This document shows, piece by piece, positions 1 through 9,550 of a stretch of 64,000 nt of DNA. Below the pieces are notes generated by a model that ran no database searches, was not told where the DNA came from, and saw only the letters and a program-made list of their open reading frames with translations. Source of the DNA: Calothrix anomala FACHB-343 (lineage in GTDB: Bacteria > Cyanobacteriota > Cyanobacteriia > Cyanobacteriales > Nostocaceae). The stretch spans positions 1 to 64,000 of the forward strand of contig NZ_JACJQG010000045.1 in the NCBI RefSeq assembly GCF_014696435.1. The letters run 5' to 3'. Both the position numbers and the translations under genes were made by a program. Positions within the stretch are counted from its first letter, which is position 1; each line of letters starts with the position of its first letter.

Positions 1-90
1 CCTTCAACAAGTTTTTCAATGAATCTGTTAATTCCATTGACACCTATGTACATTCAAAAATCGAATCATCATTGAATTTACTACAAAAAG

Positions 91-127
91 GGAAGGAAGA
101 GGTTGCCGTTGGCAACCTCTTCCTTCC
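91..127. repeat. Perfect 17-bp inverted repeat hairpin
   Basis: The arms at 91-107 and 111-127 are exact reverse complements (first arm GGAAGGAAGAGGTTGCC) around a GTT loop; one further G-C pair at 90/128 extends the stem. There is no T-run after it, so a rho-independent terminator is unlikely. It lies at the broken 5' edge of the McrB-like reading frame and is probably a small dispersed palindromic repeat. Confidence 0.8.
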
Positions 128-615
128 CCACCAGAATGATTATCATTCTTATAAGTTGTATATTTTATTCTCTGGAAGTCCCTAGACCTTCAGGATATTT
201 AGCTTACTCTGATTTTAGGGCTTGGGTGAAAACACCAGATCCTCATTCTCAAGTTGTAGAGAAAGTAAAATCTTATCTCGATCGAGCAAATCAAGTAATG
301 GAAAAAATGGGACATCCTTTTGCTCATCGTGTTTATCAAGCAATTACTCAGTATGTGGTGAACTATCCAGGAGTTGACAACACTAATTCAGCAGCTTTTA
401 AGTTTGCTATTGCAGATCAGTTTGGACAAAAACTGCTACCAAAACTACGAGGAGTGATGATTGATGAGTTTGCAGAGGAATTGGATCAATTAAAAAACAT
501 TATTGCAGAAATTAACGATCAACCGTTGATTGTAGCATTTGAAAAAGCCCGTGCAGGGCGTTACGGACAATTTCAATGGCAGGGTTTAGTGTATCAAGAT
601 GAAGCAGTAAAATGA
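103..615 (+). CDS. McrB-like AAA+ NTPase, C-terminal part (5' end broken)
   Basis: Residues from about 28 onward resemble the C-terminal lid region of McrB-type AAA+ proteins: a stretch of HPFAHRVYQAITQYV type (fold-back helix with R) followed by a QKLLPKLRG motif. Walker A and B are absent, so this is only the end of the protein. The only in-frame start is a TTG at 103 inside a perfect hairpin, and the first ~27 residues look like read-through of repeat DNA. An in-frame stop at 73-75 separates it from upstream sequence. The 3' end overlaps the next gene by 4 bp (ATGA), so it belongs to the downstream operon. Known McrB proteins are GTP-dependent motors of restriction complexes; that role is inferred here. 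The gene may be a pseudogene, or the true gene may be split by a mobile repeat. Confidence 0.55.
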   Translation: MPLATSSFPTRMIIILISCIFYSLEVPRPSGYLAYSDFRAWVKTPDPHSQVVEKVKSYLDRANQVMEKMGHPFAHRVYQAITQYVVNYPGVDNTNSAAFKFAIADQFGQKLLPKLRGVMIDEFAEELDQLKNIIAEINDQPLIVAFEKARAGRYGQFQWQGLVYQDEAVK

Positions 616-2186
616 GACTCTATCCTAGCTTATTTGCTTATTTAAATGAGTCTCCTGTACCTATAGGGACTCTATTACACCCACGCGATCGCCCAATAAT
701 TGCACTAGATCCAAAAGAGGAATTATCCGCATCATCTTTTTTAATTCCGATTGCTGATAGAGTCTATGAAATTGCTTTCCCCTATCTAAAACCAACAGAT
801 ATCAGTCAACATCCGCAGCAGTTAGAGTATGTTTTTCCTGTAAAAATTTCTGGACACATATATCATCTACATATCACTGATGAAGTTCTAGATATTGAGA
901 CTATCAAAGATACACAAGAAATTACAGAATGGGAAAATATCTTAGAACAACGTTTAGACAATACAACGTCTTTTCTCATCCGAATTTTAGTGGGAAATTT
1001 TACCAATATATTTGATAATCATCAAAGTAGACAGCCGACAATTCTCGTTAGCCAATTACAACAAAAGTTAAATCAATTTAATGTTGATGAGGCGAATATA
1101 CCTATAGTAATTAGCTTAGAACGCCGTTATCAACTCCGGCGCAAATTAGAAGCGATCGCCTCTCATCTTCGTCACCAACTCAGAAGACAAGCAGAACTCA
1201 TACCTTTGGGTAGAATTCAAGAAATGGATAGCTATTGTTTGAGAGACTATATCCGCCGTCCTGGTTCAACTCCAGCAGAAAAGGCGGGAGCCAAACAACA
1301 GTTAATGGGCATTCAAAGATATCAAGATTTTAACACGGCAGAAAATAAATTTTTGGTTTATTTTAGCCAAATTTTATATTTTAATTGTTACCAATATCAA
1401 CGGAGTGGTGCAAGTCAATATCTCGAAGAAATCCGCAAATTTAGTTTAACAATTGATTTATTCAAACAACAGCCAGTAGTTCAAGATATACAAGATAGGC
1501 GATATCAATTTACTAAACCTAACTATGTCTTACAACAAAACCCTATATATAGAAGCTTTTATCAAGCTTACTTAGAATACATTCAAAAAAAGTACGAAAA
1601 AGAGCGTTTATGGTCATTTCGTAATTATTTACTTGCTGATTCTATCTATGTTTTATTAACCGCAGCCCTATTACGTTTTCAAAACATAGGTTTCGCTGCT
1701 AACCTTAAGATTACTGGTACTAGTGTTCCTGAACAAGGGCGCTATATTGATAAACGAGAAAATCTAGCCGTTAAAGTATTTCTGAAAAATCAAGTTTACG
1801 TCTTTAGTTTGAAAAAAACATCTGAGGAATTTTCAAGTGATTTACTACTCACTGTAGACATTCATCAATTAGACTCAGCGCAATTAGAATTTCAGCAATT
1901 AGTTTTTCCAATTTGGGTATTTTGGTATCGCCCAAGTAATAACGCACTCACTCAAATCAATCAATATTTAAACAATTTAATGAATGTCCATAGTATTAAA
2001 AAAGCCTGGATATTTTATTTACAAGTACCGCCAAATCAATTTTCTCCAAACGGAATTATACAGTCATATACTAACAGCAAGCTGACAGTAGTTCAATTAC
2101 CAGATATCATCACAACACATGGGTTTTCACAAATTTTTGTGCTAATAACACATCTAATTCAAAGAGCGCTAGAGTTTCCGGTATGA
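612..2186 (+). CDS. DUF2357-like protein, putative McrC-type partner
   Basis: The 524-residue protein has a central block (about residues 170-280) with a basic LRRKLEAIASHLRHQLRRQ helix, then the PLGRI, RRPGSTPAEKAG and TAENKFLVYF motifs. This pattern recalls DUF2357 proteins, which accompany McrB-like ATPases and often carry a PD-(D/E)XK nuclease fold C-terminally. No complete PD-(D/E)XK signature is visible in the C-terminal 180 residues; an LKKT stretch near residue 405 is the nearest candidate. It starts at ATG 612 within the previous stop and its stop overlaps the next start (ATGA), so it is translationally coupled on both sides. It is likely the adaptor or effector of the AAA+ protein. 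The family call is from recall of motifs. Confidence 0.6.
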   Translation: MRLYPSLFAYLNESPVPIGTLLHPRDRPIIALDPKEELSASSFLIPIADRVYEIAFPYLKPTDISQHPQQLEYVFPVKISGHIYHLHITDEVLDIETIKDTQEITEWENILEQRLDNTTSFLIRILVGNFTNIFDNHQSRQPTILVSQLQQKLNQFNVDEANIPIVISLERRYQLRRKLEAIASHLRHQLRRQAELIPLGRIQEMDSYCLRDYIRRPGSTPAEKAGAKQQLMGIQRYQDFNTAENKFLVYFSQILYFNCYQYQRSGASQYLEEIRKFSLTIDLFKQQPVVQDIQDRRYQFTKPNYVLQQNPIYRSFYQAYLEYIQKKYEKERLWSFRNYLLADSIYVLLTAALLRFQNIGFAANLKITGTSVPEQGRYIDKRENLAVKVFLKNQVYVFSLKKTSEEFSSDLLLTVDIHQLDSAQLEFQQLVFPIWVFWYRPSNNALTQINQYLNNLMNVHSIKKAWIFYLQVPPNQFSPNGIIQSYTNSKLTVVQLPDIITTHGFSQIFVLITHLIQRALEFPV

Positions 2187-3763
2187 ATGAGCGAGAATTT
2201 TGGGGAGAATTACAGCAACTAATTTATCAATCTAATCAAACACCAGAAATTGCACAAGCACAATGGGAGAGATTAGTACAGCTACATAATTACCCCACTT
2301 TACCAACGCAATTAATTATCCAGACAATTTGTCATGGTGCGGTTTATTTAAAAGAGCGATCGCAGTTAAATTTTCCAGCGATTAACTCCAATATTCCTCT
2401 AAGTGCTAATCAAACTTTAGCCTTAGAAATGGCTTTATCAAATAGTGCGATCGCATTAATTGTTGGTTCCCCAGCTACAGGTAAAACTCGCATTGCTCAA
2501 ACTCTAGCCCATACTGCAATTAACTTTTCAAAACGAATTTTACTTTTAACTCATCACCATTCTACTCTTAACGCCTATCGCAATTTACCAGGTTATCCTT
2601 TCTGGCTAAATCAGCAGCAAGATTATCAGAGTTGGGTAATTGAACAACTATATTCTCAACATTTATCTCAGCCACAGATGGATTACTTACCATTACATCT
2701 GTTACCAGATAGAGAATTAGTAAAACTCAGAACAACAGCAAAATTAGAAAATTGGTTACCCATTATTAAAAATACTCCACAAGCACAACTGACTGAACAG
2801 TTACAGCCAGAATTTCCTGATTTAACAAATGACAGAGTTAAACTGCTAGCTTATCGCCTCAAACAATTAGAACCATTATTACAACAGCAATTAAAACTAA
2901 GTCAACTTTATGCAAATTTATCTTTACAGGGAGTTACAGAACTTGTTTCACAAATCAGTGAAAGTCCCCAGATACCAATTGTAGGTACTGTTGCTGAATT
3001 TATGCAAATTCAACATCAATCCTTATGGCACAATAACTTTGATTTAGTAATTGTGGAGGAAGCAGAATATCTAAGTAGGATAGAATTAATTTTACTATCT
3101 GGTTTAGCTAATAAACTCATTTTGTTTGGCAATATAAAAACCAAAAATCATCGTTCATCTAATGCAGGTAAATCATTTTTTAGCAGATTTACCCAAAGTT
3201 TTCACTACCTAAATCAGCACTTGCTTCCAAGCTACCGCTATCAGTTAACAGAACAATATCGAATTCATCCAGAAATATTTAAAATTGTTGAGCCAGTCAT
3301 CTGCGATCGCTGGATTCACACAAAATATTCCCGCCAATATTATCATATTCCACAATTAACAAATAGATTAATTTGGCAAGATGTTCCCAATCAAAAAGCA
3401 GGTGAGAAAATTATTCAATTTATCCAAACCTTAAATTCGCAACTCAGTTCTCAAATTGGTATCGTTACATTTTGCACTCAAGCGCGAGATTGGCTAACAG
3501 CTAACTCTCCCACAGACTTTACAGAACTATTTATTGGTACAGTAGGAGAATGGGCAGGAATAGAACGTGCGATCGTGATTATAAATTTTCCAGAAAGTCT
3601 CGAAAATTTGACTTCATCTGATATCAATATAGCTTTATCCAGAGGACAAGACTATCTAATTTTATTTGGTGATTTCGATTTCTGGAGACAACTCGGTTCA
3701 CCACTAAGAACTTTATTATCGCAACCAGAACTATACAAAGAACGCGGAGTGGTTTTATCATGA
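2183..3763 (+). CDS. Short SF1 (Upf1/DNA2-like) helicase-type ATPase
   Basis: The 526-residue protein has Walker A GSPATGKT (near residue 95), a Walker B of LVIVEEAEYL type (near 285), a QYRIHPEIF motif (near 365), a GTVGEWAGIERAIVI motif (near 455) and a C-terminal NIALSRGQDYLILFGD motif with the arginine of motif VI. This order is typical of superfamily 1B (Upf1/DNA2-like) helicases. Motif II reads EEAE rather than DEAE and motif III lacks the usual GDxxQ, so helicase activity may be altered. The protein is short for the family and has no extra nuclease domain. Four-base overlaps with both neighbours place it in one operon. It probably moves on or remodels nucleic acid for the system. Confidence 0.75.
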   Translation: MNEREFWGELQQLIYQSNQTPEIAQAQWERLVQLHNYPTLPTQLIIQTICHGAVYLKERSQLNFPAINSNIPLSANQTLALEMALSNSAIALIVGSPATGKTRIAQTLAHTAINFSKRILLLTHHHSTLNAYRNLPGYPFWLNQQQDYQSWVIEQLYSQHLSQPQMDYLPLHLLPDRELVKLRTTAKLENWLPIIKNTPQAQLTEQLQPEFPDLTNDRVKLLAYRLKQLEPLLQQQLKLSQLYANLSLQGVTELVSQISESPQIPIVGTVAEFMQIQHQSLWHNNFDLVIVEEAEYLSRIELILLSGLANKLILFGNIKTKNHRSSNAGKSFFSRFTQSFHYLNQHLLPSYRYQLTEQYRIHPEIFKIVEPVICDRWIHTKYSRQYYHIPQLTNRLIWQDVPNQKAGEKIIQFIQTLNSQLSSQIGIVTFCTQARDWLTANSPTDFTELFIGTVGEWAGIERAIVIINFPESLENLTSSDINIALSRGQDYLILFGDFDFWRQLGSPLRTLLSQPELYKERGVVLS

Positions 3764-5478
3764 AACTTCAGTACCAACTCCAAGGTGAATTTCATCGCAT
3801 TCAGTTGACTGGTACAGACTCAATTCCTGTTTCACTAGTCGATATCATCCGAGAAATACAAGCAGTAGCAACACAAAACCGCACGCGCACCCCGCAAATC
3901 TTACGTCAATCTTTTGGATTAAATTTTATTCCAGAACCTGTTTTAATTAACTTGTTAAAACAAGCGCAGGGAGTAGCAACAGAAAATCAACTATATCAAG
4001 TATCATCCTTGCAACTTCTTCACCCAATAAAATCTCAATTAGAAACACAGGTTGCAAACACATACCGTTATCAATTTATTTCCCCCATAGCCAAATTAAA
4101 TCTTACCCCAGACAATCCACAAATTCCTGTCTGGATAGGTAACAATTCAGTGCAAACAGGAATTTATACTTTTACCTTAGAAAACCCTTATTATCCAGAC
4201 TTATCTGATACTTTTATTGAAACTATTTGGCAATCTGCTGTAAATTTTTGGCATGATTTACCAGATATTAATAAAATACATTTAGCTTTACAGTCTCTAG
4301 ATTTCAATAACTTTTCTATTCTCCATCCTGAATATCCTGAGCTAAAAATATGGATTACACAAGAGGATTTATCTTTAGAGTTAAGAGAAGCAATTACATA
4401 TCTGCGATTATATGTAAGCGAATCCACGGATTTATCACAACCTGTCCAATTACTTATTCAAAATTATCAACATCAATATAATCAAGTACCAATTGTCAAC
4501 CTATCCGATGAAATTAGTCACGATCCATCTTTATCTCCAGGATTTAGATTGATAATTGGTAGAGATAATAGTCGTTCTGCGTTAAACACAATTATTTCTA
4601 CCGCCCGTCAATTCTTATTAATTTCCAGTTACATCATTGAAGATGAAAATTTAACAGAATTAATTTGCAAAAAATCACGCGAGTTACCTTTAGGAGTTTG
4701 GATTTTAACTGACTTGAGGAATGAAGTCCTTGATAGAATTGATACTGAAACATCAATTAATGTATCTGTACCAGAAATTTATCAATATTCTGATGAGCTA
4801 AAAAAGAGGTGTTTAAGAAAACTATTACGTGATAATGTTCGCATTCGTAGTGGCGCGTTTCATTTAAAAACCTATATTTCTGAACAATATGCTTATTTAG
4901 GTTCTGCAAATATCACGAGAGGAAGCTTAGATTTTAATATTGAAGCAGGTGTAGTCACTCGTAATTATGCTAATCACGAACAATTAATTAATTTATTTCG
5001 CAAATTTTGGTACAAACGTAGCCGAGATGAAGTCATACCAGATACGAGCTATGATGGTTTTCGTCTCCGTTCTATAAATCGTTATGCTGATGACAGATAT
5101 GAGCATGATCCTAATTTATTAACACCACGCCAATACCAAAAAGATTTAATACAACAACTGAGCCATTTTCAGGGAAAGGTAAAAATTTACAGTCGCAGCT
5201 TCCAACCATCTCCAGAAATAGCAGCATATCTAAATTTATTAGACACACACATATTTGTTGATTCGCAAATTCCCGTTAATCAACCAGGATTTAATGTACG
5301 CAGAACCAATAGACTTCATGCCAAAATTACTCTTTTAGGTAATCAAGTCGCTTATATTGGCGGAGTTAATTTTAATTTTAGTAGTAGGGCATTGTCACTA
5401 CATGATTTGATGTATAAGACTAATAATAAACAAGAAATTGATCAACTAATTAAAAATCTTAACTCATTAAATATTTAA
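3760..5478 (+). CDS. Phospholipase D-superfamily (HKD) protein, putative nuclease
   Basis: The 572-residue protein has two HxK motifs of the PLD superfamily: HLKTYIS followed by GSANITRG (about residues 368-390), and LHAKITLLG followed by GGVNFNFSS (about 523-545). The asparagine-containing GSxN and GGxN partners are present. The aspartate of HxKx4D is replaced by E in the first motif and G in the second. PLD enzymes use the two H/K pairs in one active site; in prokaryotic defence operons they commonly act as nucleases. The N-terminal ~270 residues are unassigned. Its start overlaps the helicase stop by 4 bp and the next gene begins 3 bp after its stop. The nuclease role is inferred from context. 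Confidence 0.7.
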   Translation: MKLQYQLQGEFHRIQLTGTDSIPVSLVDIIREIQAVATQNRTRTPQILRQSFGLNFIPEPVLINLLKQAQGVATENQLYQVSSLQLLHPIKSQLETQVANTYRYQFISPIAKLNLTPDNPQIPVWIGNNSVQTGIYTFTLENPYYPDLSDTFIETIWQSAVNFWHDLPDINKIHLALQSLDFNNFSILHPEYPELKIWITQEDLSLELREAITYLRLYVSESTDLSQPVQLLIQNYQHQYNQVPIVNLSDEISHDPSLSPGFRLIIGRDNSRSALNTIISTARQFLLISSYIIEDENLTELICKKSRELPLGVWILTDLRNEVLDRIDTETSINVSVPEIYQYSDELKKRCLRKLLRDNVRIRSGAFHLKTYISEQYAYLGSANITRGSLDFNIEAGVVTRNYANHEQLINLFRKFWYKRSRDEVIPDTSYDGFRLRSINRYADDRYEHDPNLLTPRQYQKDLIQQLSHFQGKVKIYSRSFQPSPEIAAYLNLLDTHIFVDSQIPVNQPGFNVRRTNRLHAKITLLGNQVAYIGGVNFNFSSRALSLHDLMYKTNNKQEIDQLIKNLNSLNI

Positions 5479-5481
5479 TTT

Positions 5482-7866
5482 ATGACTAGATTATTAAATT
5501 TAGAATCTTACATTGAATGTTGCCAATATTCTCAACTATTTGATGAGCCACTTCAGCCATTAGTTCCCTCACCTGAAGATTTACCCAGAGAATACAAAAA
5601 ATTATTACAAAAATATTTCAATCATCCCTATATTCAAGAAGAAATAATCAATGCAAATTATCCCCAAGAGTTGACAATCAACCGCAATAACATAGATTAC
5701 TTCTTGGTAGGTACAGAACTAACTCAAGCAGAAAAACAGCGCTTATTCATTATCCGAGATACAGTGGATTTGATGACGCTGAGTATGAGTAATTTTTTAG
5801 AACATCGAGACGGTTATTTATACAGTAGCGCTTATCATTACTGGAATTATTATTCTCAAATTAGCCATCAGCAAATAAATAAATCTTTAATTTTTGTTGA
5901 GCTAGATAATTTTGGTATCCTTAAACTAATTCCCGTTGATTTATTTTGTCCCGATAATAGCCCTTATCAAGTTCCAATTCTTCAAACTCAAAACGCCATA
6001 ATTCTTGATTCAGCCTACAATGGTCAAGAAACATATCAAAGCATTTGTATAAGTTTAGCAGTAAAAATTCTAAAAGATAACTTTCCTGTATTAGCTGATA
6101 ATATTGATACGGTTAATCACCTAAATAATTATTTACAGAAAATTTCTATTTTTAAGATTATCCAGCTTTATATAAATGAAAAAACTATAAATTTTGTTAC
6201 AGAGATTTTATATAATCAACATATTTTTTATAAAAATGTAACTTTATCAATAGGTGCGATCGCAAATATTGTATCCAATACAATCAATATTCAATATCTC
6301 AGACAACTTGCTAGTCAGCATCCGCAATATCAATTTGCATTAGTCACACAATACAATATTTTTGCACATATCCAGCAACTACTACCAGAATTTATCTGTC
6401 TTAACCCCCTATCTCTACAGTTTCATCAAATATGGGAAGAAAAAATTCAGTATAATTTCCCGCTTTTTGGGATTTATCTCGATCAAATAGAATTCGCCAT
6501 CGGTATTCCAGATGATCAAGGGAGAGTATCAAGACAATGGATTCAATTATCTAATCCAGAAGATGCTATTTCTTATGAAGGCGATCGCAAAGTTTTAATC
6601 GGTAATATTCCCAGTTTAGATCAGAATTTTTTCCGCATCAAAAATAAAATAGCTAATTTACCTATTAAGGTAAATGGTGAGGATTACTGTAAATATAGGA
6701 TACCACAAGACTATAAAATTGAAATTAAAGACTATGAAGGTACTGAGGATGTCCGCATAGGTATAGAGTTTCATCTGCAACCTGGTTCTTTTCCTGAACT
6801 TAAAGTTACAGATATAGATGGTAAATATAATAATATCAATACTTTTCTGGCAGATAGAATACAAACATCCTATAGCTATATTCCACTTGCAAAAATCACT
6901 AGCACTCGTCAGCAAGAATCTTTAAATCAAATTGATAGATTACAAAAATATCAAGATTTTATAGAATTTAAAATGGCTTTACTAAATCTCTCAAAAGAGT
7001 TAGATACTCTTTCAAGAGTACGCTTTGAGAGAGCAAGTTTTATAAATTTAAATGATCTACTTAGCAAAGCATCTAGAATAATTAATAAGAATAGTGCTGG
7101 ATTATATGCACTGCAATTAATTAATACTGTATCCAATCAGTCAGTTGTTAGTGAACTGAAAGAAGATATAAAAAATACTAAACTTCATAGAATAGTTGAT
7201 TTAATAATTGAATTGATAAATTTGTCCAATTATACACAATTGAATACCATACAAAAAAATTGTCTAAATACAGCAGTTATTTTCATCGGTAAATTTTATT
7301 ATTTCTCAGAAAATATTTTAAAAGAAAATTTATTTGATATAAAAATCTTTAATAATATTAATAAAATTCAATATCTTACTTCAGGCAATGAATATTTGCA
7401 ATTGCTTGCTAAAGTGGCAATAAATTTAAGACAGCAAAATGAGTATTTTAATTGGTTTCATTCTTTTTATAAACTAGAAAAAAATAAATACTTATGGGGG
7501 TATAGTCGTATTTTACTTTGGTATTATAAGTTTGATTTTTCAGTTAATTCTCTGAATTATCAAGAACATTTTAGCTTAATTATGGAATATTTACTTAGTA
7601 AACCACATACAGGTTTTGATTATACTTATAAACAAAATGCATTTTTGTCTTTGTTGTATTTATTATCATTCCGTGAGCATGATAAAATATTTTGCCAAGA
7701 TGGTTCAATAGAGAATTTAACAGCTAAAAGAGTTATTGAACATTTCAAACAGGATAGAATTATCCTTAAACAAGTAAGCACTGAAAAACCACTCAATCAA
7801 TATTTCTATGAAATGATACAGGGAACTGCAACTGAAGATGATTTAAATAATATTGTGCAAGCTTAA
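5482..7866 (+). CDS. Unrecognised 794-residue protein, last gene of the McrB/PLD operon
   Basis: I do not recognise this family. The protein is rich in I, N, Y, Q and K and appears soluble. Around residues 410-455 it has a beta-rich stretch containing LQPGSFPELKVTDIDGKYN, somewhat like the substrate-domain edge of Hsp70-like or actin-like proteins; this is weak. The last ~330 residues look all-helical with alternating hydrophobics. No Walker, nuclease, methyltransferase or helix-turn-helix motif was seen. It starts 3 bp after the PLD gene with no promoter space, so it is almost surely co-transcribed. Codon use is more AT-rich than elsewhere in the window, as is common in accessory genes. It could be a sensor, chaperone-like or scaffold subunit. 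Confidence 0.6.
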   Translation: MTRLLNLESYIECCQYSQLFDEPLQPLVPSPEDLPREYKKLLQKYFNHPYIQEEIINANYPQELTINRNNIDYFLVGTELTQAEKQRLFIIRDTVDLMTLSMSNFLEHRDGYLYSSAYHYWNYYSQISHQQINKSLIFVELDNFGILKLIPVDLFCPDNSPYQVPILQTQNAIILDSAYNGQETYQSICISLAVKILKDNFPVLADNIDTVNHLNNYLQKISIFKIIQLYINEKTINFVTEILYNQHIFYKNVTLSIGAIANIVSNTINIQYLRQLASQHPQYQFALVTQYNIFAHIQQLLPEFICLNPLSLQFHQIWEEKIQYNFPLFGIYLDQIEFAIGIPDDQGRVSRQWIQLSNPEDAISYEGDRKVLIGNIPSLDQNFFRIKNKIANLPIKVNGEDYCKYRIPQDYKIEIKDYEGTEDVRIGIEFHLQPGSFPELKVTDIDGKYNNINTFLADRIQTSYSYIPLAKITSTRQQESLNQIDRLQKYQDFIEFKMALLNLSKELDTLSRVRFERASFINLNDLLSKASRIINKNSAGLYALQLINTVSNQSVVSELKEDIKNTKLHRIVDLIIELINLSNYTQLNTIQKNCLNTAVIFIGKFYYFSENILKENLFDIKIFNNINKIQYLTSGNEYLQLLAKVAINLRQQNEYFNWFHSFYKLEKNKYLWGYSRILLWYYKFDFSVNSLNYQEHFSLIMEYLLSKPHTGFDYTYKQNAFLSLLYLLSFREHDKIFCQDGSIENLTAKRVIEHFKQDRIILKQVSTEKPLNQYFYEMIQGTATEDDLNNIVQA

Positions 7867-8055
7867 ATTTTGCATGAATAAGTAGGTCGCTGGCTGTCAT
7901 TTTACATAAGTTATAGTTGATTTATTTAATTTATAGTTCTCTGATAACCTACTTTTTTAAGAAGTTGGGTATCTCTTAGAAATAATTGAAAATTACAAAA
8001 TCAGTTAGTAACTTCCAAAGAAAAACAATATCCCAATCATTAACTTACTAAACCT

Positions 8056-8180
8056 GGGGACATACAATTTTTTAAATACCGAATAAATTTGTAGTGCGAG
8101 CATCTTGCTCGCTTTTGAACACCAGCGAGCAAGATGCTCGCACTGCGAAATATGGATAATTTATTTTTTGTAAGTCCCCT
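8056..8180. repeat. Miniature element B with a 19-bp perfect hairpin
   Basis: The ends GGGGACATACAA and its near reverse complement TTGTAAGTCCCC bound about 125 bp. Inside, 8094-8112 and 8125-8143 form a perfect 19-bp stem (GTGCGAGCATCTTGCTCGC and its complement). It interrupts element A between its TTACTAAACC and GCAACTC segments, which are contiguous in other copies. Confidence 0.7.
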
Positions 8181-8205
8181 GCAACTCATAGGGGCGGTAT
8201 CACCC

Positions 8206-8387
8206 ACCTGTGTTAACTTACGCTCAAAACCTTTATCTATCTCGTTTCCAGCCGGAGGCTGGAAATGCATATTGTGAGACTCTGCCTCGAAAGCTGATAA
8301 ATTGAGGCAGAGCCTCACGATTTTCGCTCCCACGCAGAGCATGGGAGCTAGATGAAATGGGGATTTCACGCTAAGTTGACACCAATG
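8206..8387. repeat. Miniature element C with target duplication
   Basis: The sequence GGTATCACCC at 8196-8205 is repeated at 8388-8397, directly flanking about 182 bp. The right terminus is TAAGTTGACACCAATG and the left is a degenerate complement. It contains two small hairpins (GCCGGAGGC and GAGGCAGAG/CTCTGCCTC). A sister copy of almost the same length sits at 35264-35444. Confidence 0.75.
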
Positions 8388-8466
8388 GGTATCACCCCGC
8401 CCCTACAATTTGGGATAATTTATTTTTTGAAATTTCCTTAACTAAGTAAAAAAGAGGAAATTTTAT

Positions 8467-9372
8467 CTATATTTCTGTTTCAGTCTCTGCTTCTAAGTCT
8501 ATATCTGAAACTGTAGCAAAATAACTATTAATTTTATTCAACAAAGGCACTAATAAAACCAACATACAAGCAGAATATAAATCACCACCCCAACTATCAT
8601 GTAACCATTTAAAAGCGGCTTCTTGACCTGTACCATGAAAAAATGTCAATGCAGTGTTGCGAATAATATTGGCACTAATACTAATCACAACAGCAATGAT
8701 TAAAAACCACTGGGTTGTGCGGCGTGAAGATAAAGCACCTGTCCAATAAAGCAACATTAAGCTGACATATAGAGTAGTAAATAACATTTTTAGCCCTGCA
8801 CAATAAGGTGCAACTTCTACAATTCTTCCTCCTACAAATAAATTTATGCCTTCAACATTTACTTCCATACCAAACTGATTGAGTATAAACCCAGCCGTAC
8901 CAGCTATGAAACTTTGCAATGGTAAAGTGTAAGGCGCAATCAGATAAGGTAATGACGTTGGGGTTGCTAAAAATATTAGTAATAGCGGAAATCTTTGCAA
9001 TTTTAAACCTGGGATACCTTTGAACCATAAACACAATCCGGCTAAAATAGCGGGTAAGGAAAGGTTAACCCACTCAGTTACACCGCTTAAATAAAATACT
9101 CCCCCAATTAATAGTAAAACAGCGCCAAGAGGATGAATGATATTTGGTAGCCTTTGCCATTGTTTGCGTTGTAGCCATACTAGATAACTAGCGAAAGGTA
9201 GCCCGATTAAACCGTGGCTAAAATATTCGTGTTCTGTACTAATATTTTTATGCAACCAACCATCAACCCAATGTAGTAATATCGGCGCATAAAGTAAGAT
9301 TAAAACGCCTAAAATTGCTAGATTAAGTAATTGCTCTGTATTCCTAATTTTGAGATATTGTTGTATTGCCAT
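8467..9372 (-). CDS. Cyanoexosortase (exosortase/archaeosortase family)
   Basis: This is a multi-pass membrane protein of 301 residues with about eight hydrophobic segments. It carries the exosortase catalytic triad: Cys in EVAPYCAGLKML, Arg in SANIIRNTAL and His in WLHDSWGGDLYS. Exosortases are membrane transpeptidase-like enzymes that process PEP-CTERM-type sorting tails during export, usually alongside exopolysaccharide genes. The AGL after Cys and the overall sequence fit the cyanobacterial type (A or B not settled; B favoured). I chose the ATG at 9372 over a TTG at 9384. No PEP-CTERM substrate is visible nearby. The sugar aminotransferase upstream on the same strand fits a cell-surface polysaccharide context. 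Confidence 0.8.
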   Translation of the reverse strand: MAIQQYLKIRNTEQLLNLAILGVLILLYAPILLHWVDGWLHKNISTEHEYFSHGLIGLPFASYLVWLQRKQWQRLPNIIHPLGAVLLLIGGVFYLSGVTEWVNLSLPAILAGLCLWFKGIPGLKLQRFPLLLIFLATPTSLPYLIAPYTLPLQSFIAGTAGFILNQFGMEVNVEGINLFVGGRIVEVAPYCAGLKMLFTTLYVSLMLLYWTGALSSRRTTQWFLIIAVVISISANIIRNTALTFFHGTGQEAAFKWLHDSWGGDLYSACMLVLLVPLLNKINSYFATVSDIDLEAETETEI

Positions 9373-9550
9373 AATTTTCAGCAATGCAAAATTTATTGCG
9401 CTTCGCGTGTCAGTTGTTAGTAGGGGCGGGTTGATGCGAAATCATCCTTAAGCAGCGAAGATATCTGTGAACCCGCCCTTACAGTTGTTTTTGGAAGGAG
9501 TCTAATACCCGAACCCAAGAGTGGGTGGTTTTTAGGTGTCTAGGAAATAA

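Follow-up and report, generated by a model that had tools for sequence, protein, structure and literature searches.

CoCoNuTs are predicted immune systems which, as far as we found, are known in the open-licence literature from computation only. The main-text passages on Type III-C in Bell et al. (eLife 2024; PMC11090510) describe a McrBC-derived group, mainly from Cyanobacteriota, whose targeting of RNA is predicted, not shown, and is inferred, for III-B as for III-C, only from the Hsp70-like CnuD. In the same passages, III-C comprises CnuB; CnuC, whose nuclease domain is inactivated; CnuH, a UPF1-like protein with a helical insertion after Walker A; CnuE, made of a distorted, elongated winged helix-turn-helix (wHTH) and two phospholipase D (PLD) domains; and CnuD, an Hsp70-like protein encoded separately. 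TerY-P is lacking, and NxD followed by E marks the CoCoNuT branch of the McrB GTPases. Here we analyse a stretch of 64,000 nucleotides from Calothrix anomala FACHB-343 (the window), which opens with five co-oriented genes (A to E) in the order cnuB-cnuC-cnuH-cnuE-cnuD. With high confidence, we assign this operon to Type III-C, by a match to the published description rather than to published sequences. An earlier account made from the DNA letters alone, the sequence-only reading, had proposed an undescribed, distinct system; that proposal falls, as the whole set corresponds to the named Type III-C of those passages, while its view of the genes as a defence operon is supported, or at least compatible, with a named predicted immune system as the match.

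The correspondence with the III-C passages extends to a McrB GTPase with NxD and a coiled coil, a DUF2357 partner, a UPF1-like CnuH, a CnuE with two PLD domains, an Hsp70-like CnuD and a host among the Cyanobacteriota. The DUF2357, helicase and PLD content named in the sequence-only reading was borne out, and the open reading frame (ORF) coordinates agree with its layout: junctions A/B, B/C and C/D are 4-base ATGA overlaps, and a 3-base gap separates D from E. In relatives, full-length CnuB begins with a hydrophobic segment, continues into a long coiled region, and carries a Walker A GISGTGKS and the sequence TMNEDE (NxD then E). TMNEDE is kept in 15 of 15 aligned GTPase domains and, again behind a long coiled region, on the half of the gene that lies on contig C31 of this strain; coiled-coil-type Pfam matches were obtained for CnuB in two of three relatives. 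CnuC matches DUF2357 above the Pfam cut-off (2.6e-8), and over the stretch from residue 195 to 414-436 the window's protein is similar to III-B CnuC (1e-20 to 8e-19). No [DE]xK column after residue 244 is common to half of the 16 CnuC sequences aligned. CnuH matches AAA_12, again above the Pfam cut-off (4.3e-7), and its profile finds ZNFX1 (1.7e-20), SMUBP-2 (8e-15), SEN1 (4e-13) and UPF1 (5e-12) in the PDB; Walker A is present in all 16 aligned sequences, and about 190 residues lie between it and motif II, as counted on the alignment only. CnuE matches PLDc_2 (6.4e-18), keeps H368xK370 and H520xK522 in 17 of 17 aligned homologues each, and has an N-terminal part of about 270 amino acids before the PLD domains.

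CnuD required a structural comparison. Gene E has no credible match in Pfam, PADLOC or NCBIfam; its sequence profiles found nothing among the PDB, III-B and III-A proteins, and its sequence matches none of the proteins of III-B and TerY-P operons. By hhalign, it scores P 0.38-0.56 against III-B CnuD and 0.64 against Hsp70. Because III-B CnuD itself scores only P 0.48 against Hsp70, and has no Pfam match, sequence methods are unable to decide whether the E protein is kin to Hsp70. The AlphaFold2 model, made from 22 sequences (mean pLDDT 85.4, pTM 0.61), consists of an alpha/beta part (residues 1-330), a beta-sandwich (336-458) and a helical part (469-794). In a Foldseek search of the PDB, DnaK 4b9q came top (E-value 1.1e-8, probability 1.00), and 38 of the 39 hits with an E-value of 1e-3 or lower are, by title, Hsp70-family proteins or complexes containing one, including the RAC entries, which we take to be Hsp70-family; the title of the remaining hit, 7sqc_Z0, gives a ciliary complex only. 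The TM-scores against DnaK, 0.27 by query and 0.33 by target, are low; the match of the model therefore lies in the fold and in the order of domains and does not extend to a close superposition. Once gene E is taken as a predicted Hsp70-like protein, no named component of Type III-C is left without a counterpart. Three points count against the assignment: no similarity of E to III-B CnuD or Hsp70 was detectable by sequence, the TM-scores are low, and for CnuC the inactive nuclease fold, like the wHTH for CnuE, is a putative feature here. The profile searches and structure prediction suggested in the sequence-only reading were thus informative for E (Hsp70-like by model) and for C (UPF1-like by PDB profile); the PDB search with the CnuC profile gave nothing useful.

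The identities of CnuB and CnuC to those of other CoCoNuT types point the same way. By gene content, two Rhizobium operons (L103, L106) were assigned to Type III-B, and operons of Photobacterium, Caballeronia and Phytobacter with VWA, phosphatase or kinase genes to Types II/III-A. A tblastn search with the GTPase matched 264 plasmid records. Identity to the GTPase of a relative (L065) is 64% for the copy on plasmid pSYSX of Synechocystis PCC 6803, 42-44% for the III-B-assigned Rhizobium copies and Sinorhizobium L107, and 36-38% for the copies with TerY-P; all have NxD. In a tree of 22 GTPase domains, built without the sequences of the published study, the cyanobacterial group stands apart from the III-B and TerY-P groups. 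The III-B operons L103 and L106 resemble this one in their CnuB (42-44%, with NxD), a homologous CnuC and a separate CnuD-sized protein after CnuC; on the other hand, their helicase gene is a different one, a further protein stands on its own between CnuH and CnuB, and the annotated operon has no PLD protein. The operon of the window has no TerY-P genes, and the 26 features annotated near the pSYSX copy include none either.

Systems outside the CoCoNuTs match in part. Canonical McrBC is defined by an NxxD GTPase with an active PD-(D/E)xK nuclease. It shares the McrB-type GTPase and the DUF2357 partner, but here NxD stands in place of NxxD, a coiled region replaces the methylcytosine-binding domain and there are three extra genes; membership was rejected on the NxD found in every aligned GTPase domain and on the C-terminal half of CnuC, which has no conserved [DE]xK. 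Mokosh type I likewise has a UPF1-like helicase followed by a PLD protein, and the C protein matches MkoA at 2.4e-15 (70-130) and 9.9e-14 (69-503); however, C has no kinase domain, D matches MkoB at 0.0011, and McrB, DUF2357 and Hsp70-like genes are added here. Membership was rejected since C and D do not give the full-length matches seen for the MkoA-MkoB pair of Tolypothrix campylonemoides (L085 3856-10231; 1.7e-202 and 2.2e-69). DISARM is defined by the DrmA (YprA-like) helicase and DrmB (DUF1998). None of the five proteins hits DrmA or DrmB, so DISARM was also rejected, and the likeness to it drawn in the sequence-only reading is confined to the PLD domain of D, which is DrmC-like (1.8e-9). 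The full CnuB proteins of L065 (3012-5498) and L061 (2924-5119) match the PADLOC candidate PDC-M26A at 1.9e-41 and 3.9e-46, and the other four proteins of the window have no PDC-M26 hit; PDC-M26A may be a CoCoNuT CnuB. A distinct, unnamed five-gene system might be argued from the fact that the set carries no name in any PADLOC or NCBIfam model and that E belongs to no sequence family; yet every component, including the Hsp70-like gene, and the cyanobacterial distribution agree with Type III-C in the published passages, and we regard such a system as very improbable.

Unlike Type III-C as published, this strain has a split cnuB. The window starts at base 1 of contig C85 in a 9.24-Mb draft genome of 144 contigs, and its first 184 nucleotides are a repeat, with matches of 183-184 nucleotides at 98-100% identity at the ends of contigs C68, C59, C18, C15 and C101. 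Because this stretch is a multicopy repeat, the TTG at 103 is not the start of gene A, and we rejected 103-615 as an intact gene; the 3' part of gene A is 71% identical to residues 688-827 of a relative's protein (L029). The sequence-only reading had looked to the upstream flank for the full AAA+ gene. Indeed, the 5' part of cnuB was recovered as a 569-codon frame on contig C31, where it runs into a second repeat, 104 nucleotides long, with 10 identical copies in the genome including its own. Measured against Calothrix brevissima (L061), about 33 codons are absent between the two halves, and the genome holds, outside C85 and C31, one weak further match to gene A (8.9e-4), in the coiled region. 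Taking the repeat at the start of C85 as the end of an element, we infer that mobile elements split cnuB in this strain. This reading comes from a draft assembly, which tells against it, and an assembly error is the less likely explanation. As cnuB is split by repeats and lacks about 33 codons, the CoCoNuT of this strain is probably inactive.

How widely the five genes travel together was followed through loci picked via gene E and by relatedness; many are related, and the counts describe conserved order, not independent origins. Of 291 genomes of the order, 29 have a match to gene E, in several cases a short fragment; in a sample of the phylum it occurs in 17 of 386 genomes, all within the same order. 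Scanning genome contigs with two peptide patterns yielded 403 candidate stretches, from which 25 loci were confirmed; by their titles, all are cyanobacterial. All five genes stand in order at 16 of the 25 loci found with E, and at 16 of 20 in a second set that overlaps the first, so the conserved neighbourhood that the sequence-only reading proposed to search for does exist. The remaining loci of the first set have gene A as fragments only (L078), are interrupted by contig ends (L066, L071, L072, L079), or keep a fragment of E near a contig end (L082, L084), fragments of C, D and E (L083) or fragments of A and E (L085). The misses of the second set are three interruptions by contig ends (L030, L040, L041) and one locus with only part of D and E (L039). 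Not every gene is intact in the 16 five-gene loci of the first set: L065 has a broken D, L070 a broken A, L073 a broken B and a broken D, and L074 probably a broken C. The same operon lies on pSYSX (NC_005232.1 11348-20500), annotated there as AAA ATPase, DUF2357, hypothetical, phospholipase D and hypothetical; presumed older locus tags of these genes gave no match in the open-licence literature. A housekeeping or element-maintenance operon, rather than an immune system, would suit the six proteins upstream on C31, which have no PADLOC defence-model hits, and the lack of functional data. This explanation is very unlikely given the patchy presence in the order, the frequent broken copies, the plasmid location in Synechocystis, and the Mokosh pair that sits between operon remnants in L085.

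The start of CnuB is a feature that we did not find in the main-text passages on Type III-C; those on membrane, transmembrane segments and glycine zippers concern other groups. Of 19 open CnuB frames, 18 have their most hydrophobic 19-residue stretch within the first ~70 residues (the exception is L073). This stretch reaches at least 1.6 on the Kyte-Doolittle scale in 15 of the 19, and the N-terminal segment is usually glycine-rich. It is possible that this segment is a membrane anchor. The weak hydrophobic start of L065, and its absence in L073, argue against this.

The hypervariable segments of CnuC and CnuD, likewise not found in those passages, emerge from close relatives. Between the window and C. 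brevissima, DNA identity is 91-100% in cnuH, 86-99% in cnuE and 94-100% in cnuC up to bin 1900, and the downstream exosortase-like gene keeps 91-98% in six 100-nucleotide bins. At the end of cnuC identity is down to 58-73%, and cnuD bins 7000-7500 reach just 49-74%, with milder dips at bins 6000-6200 and 7600-7900; the coil of cnuB drops to 53-74%. In protein, CnuC is 98% identical over residues 1-440 and 40% over 440-524, and CnuD 84% over 1-480 and 40% over 480-680. In the genus to which Planktothrix sp. PCC 11201 belongs, four loci share CnuH at 92-95% and CnuE at 88-92%. Compared with the other three, CnuC of L033 falls to 38-68% from about residue 360 and CnuD of L035 is at 20-45% over 480-640 and at 52-72% over 320-480, and CnuB of L036 is at 40-52% over 40-120; a joint exchange of the CnuC and CnuD parts was rejected, since they vary independently in these four loci. 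Because CnuC and CnuD vary while CnuH and CnuE stay so constant, we read the CnuC C-terminus and CnuD residues ~480-680 as exchanged recognition segments. The sequence-only reading had placed a sensor or effector in the 794-residue gene; a recognition part there is supported, or at least compatible, though not as part of a distinct system.

These segments might instead be fast-evolving linkers or helical repeats under weak constraint, a possibility of some weight that nevertheless stays below an even chance. Across the family as a whole, conservation is lowest in these same segments (for CnuD 480-640, mean pairwise identity 16-30% in 22 sequences), part of the CnuB coiled region varies too, and two close pairs (L031/L032, L076/L077) have no valley in CnuD, which also speaks against an exchange. 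Three points speak against weakly constrained linkers: DNA identity drops from about 97% to 50-70% within otherwise near-identical operons; the regions vary independently between strains; and the segments of the window resemble C. brevissima (40%) no more than they resemble the more distant L062 (CnuC 440-524 at 46%, CnuD 480-680 at 45%), a pattern that uniform drift would not produce.

We propose the following mechanism, to which we give just under an even chance. First, CnuD and the C-terminal region of CnuC would recognise viral or aberrant nucleic acid, probably RNA, and this recognition would switch on the CnuB-CnuC GTPase assembly. Second, CnuH would act as an ATP-driven translocase or loader that delivers the PLD nuclease CnuE, which would then cut the target. 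More tentatively, the hydrophobic N-terminus of CnuB would tether it to a membrane. A wider view, which we think unlikely in its full form, is that III-C systems are membrane-tethered machines in which two parts, the CnuC C-terminus and the beginning of the helical part of CnuD, determine the range of targets, each being swapped independently by recombination between cyanobacteria; just as speculatively, such swaps would leave the GTPase core, CnuH and the PLD effector constant, as with the specificity subunits of Type I restriction systems, here in an Hsp70-like sensor. Taken as a whole, III-C membership together with the proposed mechanism and the inactivation is the best explanation that we have, and a likely one.

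An active unwinding role for CnuH is doubtful. The canonical motif II of such helicases is DE; here 14 of 16 sequences open the motif with E, one with A and one with D, DE occurs only in L081, and the motif is thus atypical in 15 of 16. This, and the fact that we found no functional test of Type III-C in the open-licence literature, weigh against the mechanism. DNA as the target remains a real rival because RNA targeting in III-C comes from the inference on CnuD: the PLD protein would cut phage or modified DNA as classical Type IV restriction does, and the Hsp70-like protein would sense a protein or complex. In the published passages, III-C has no HEPN RNases. DISARM is a DNA-directed system. 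Its DrmC is among the nearest PLD profile matches, and UPF1-like proteins include some that act on DNA, such as DNA2; on the other side, RNA helicases (ZNFX1, SEN1, UPF1) make up most of the top PDB relatives of CnuH, which does not settle the substrate. We regard DNA targeting as possible, at a clearly lower level than an even chance.

As the discovery of a system this is ordinary: the operon is not an undescribed one, and its copy in the window is probably dead. What is new from these comparisons is the pair of hypervariable segments, the hydrophobic start of CnuB and the usually atypical motif II of CnuH. The III-C copy on pSYSX, in a cyanobacterium that serves as a standard laboratory strain, provides a setting in which the genes can be removed and tested, and the two short segments, together with the possible membrane anchor, are concrete targets for such tests; the use of the present analysis lies in this testable copy and these specific segments.

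Features of the operon in the window, with positions counted from its first base
Feature	Position	Strand	Basis
ORF A, with listed TTG start	103-615	+	ORF list
Gene A, 3' part of cnuB, last 143 codons (184-612) and stop	184..615	+	ORF list, homologue alignment
Gene B, cnuC, DUF2357 protein, 524 aa	612..2186	+	Pfam DUF2357 2.6e-8
Gene C, cnuH, UPF1-like superfamily 1 (SF1) ATPase, 526 aa	2183..3763	+	Pfam AAA_12, PDB profile search
Gene D, cnuE, two PLD nuclease domains, 572 aa	3760..5478	+	Pfam PLDc_2, HxK alignment
Gene E, cnuD, predicted Hsp70-like, helical C-terminal half, 794 aa	5482..7866	+	AlphaFold2 and Foldseek
Multicopy repeat, start of contig C85	1..184	.	Matches at ends of 5 other contigs
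Hypervariable C-terminal segment of CnuC, residues ~440-524	1929..2183	+	Comparison with relatives
Hypervariable segment of CnuD, residues ~480-680, start of helical part	6919..7521	+	Comparison with relatives

Several smaller observations concern altered copies and neighbours. In L085, the Mokosh pair sits between an N-terminal fragment of CnuB (1-222) and a C-terminal fragment of CnuD (718-788); by sequence, one helicase-PLD system occupies the former place of another. Two loci of one genus, L088 (8679-9775) and L090 (7867-8927), hold the same reduced remnant of the operon, with the CnuB N-terminus and its hydrophobic start (1-180 or 6-180), CnuE 12-44 and the CnuD C-terminus (691 or 678 to 794), which is either a decay scar or a small retained module. 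In L037 (reverse complement 6613-8900), about 440 nucleotides with the start of cnuE are repeated, with starts at 7771, 8213 and 8653, next to a transposase-like frame identified by reading; the extra D-like matches were rejected as tandem effectors, as this repeated stretch holds short frames instead. Near the pSYSX CoCoNuT (L102 5880-6953) lies a DUF87 HerA-like ATPase that matches PADLOC mad8 (2.3e-21) and DndH (4.5e-21). In the window, a multi-pass protein (8467-9384, minus strand), named exosortase-like by reading of its sequence, lies directly downstream of the operon and has the same place in C. brevissima.

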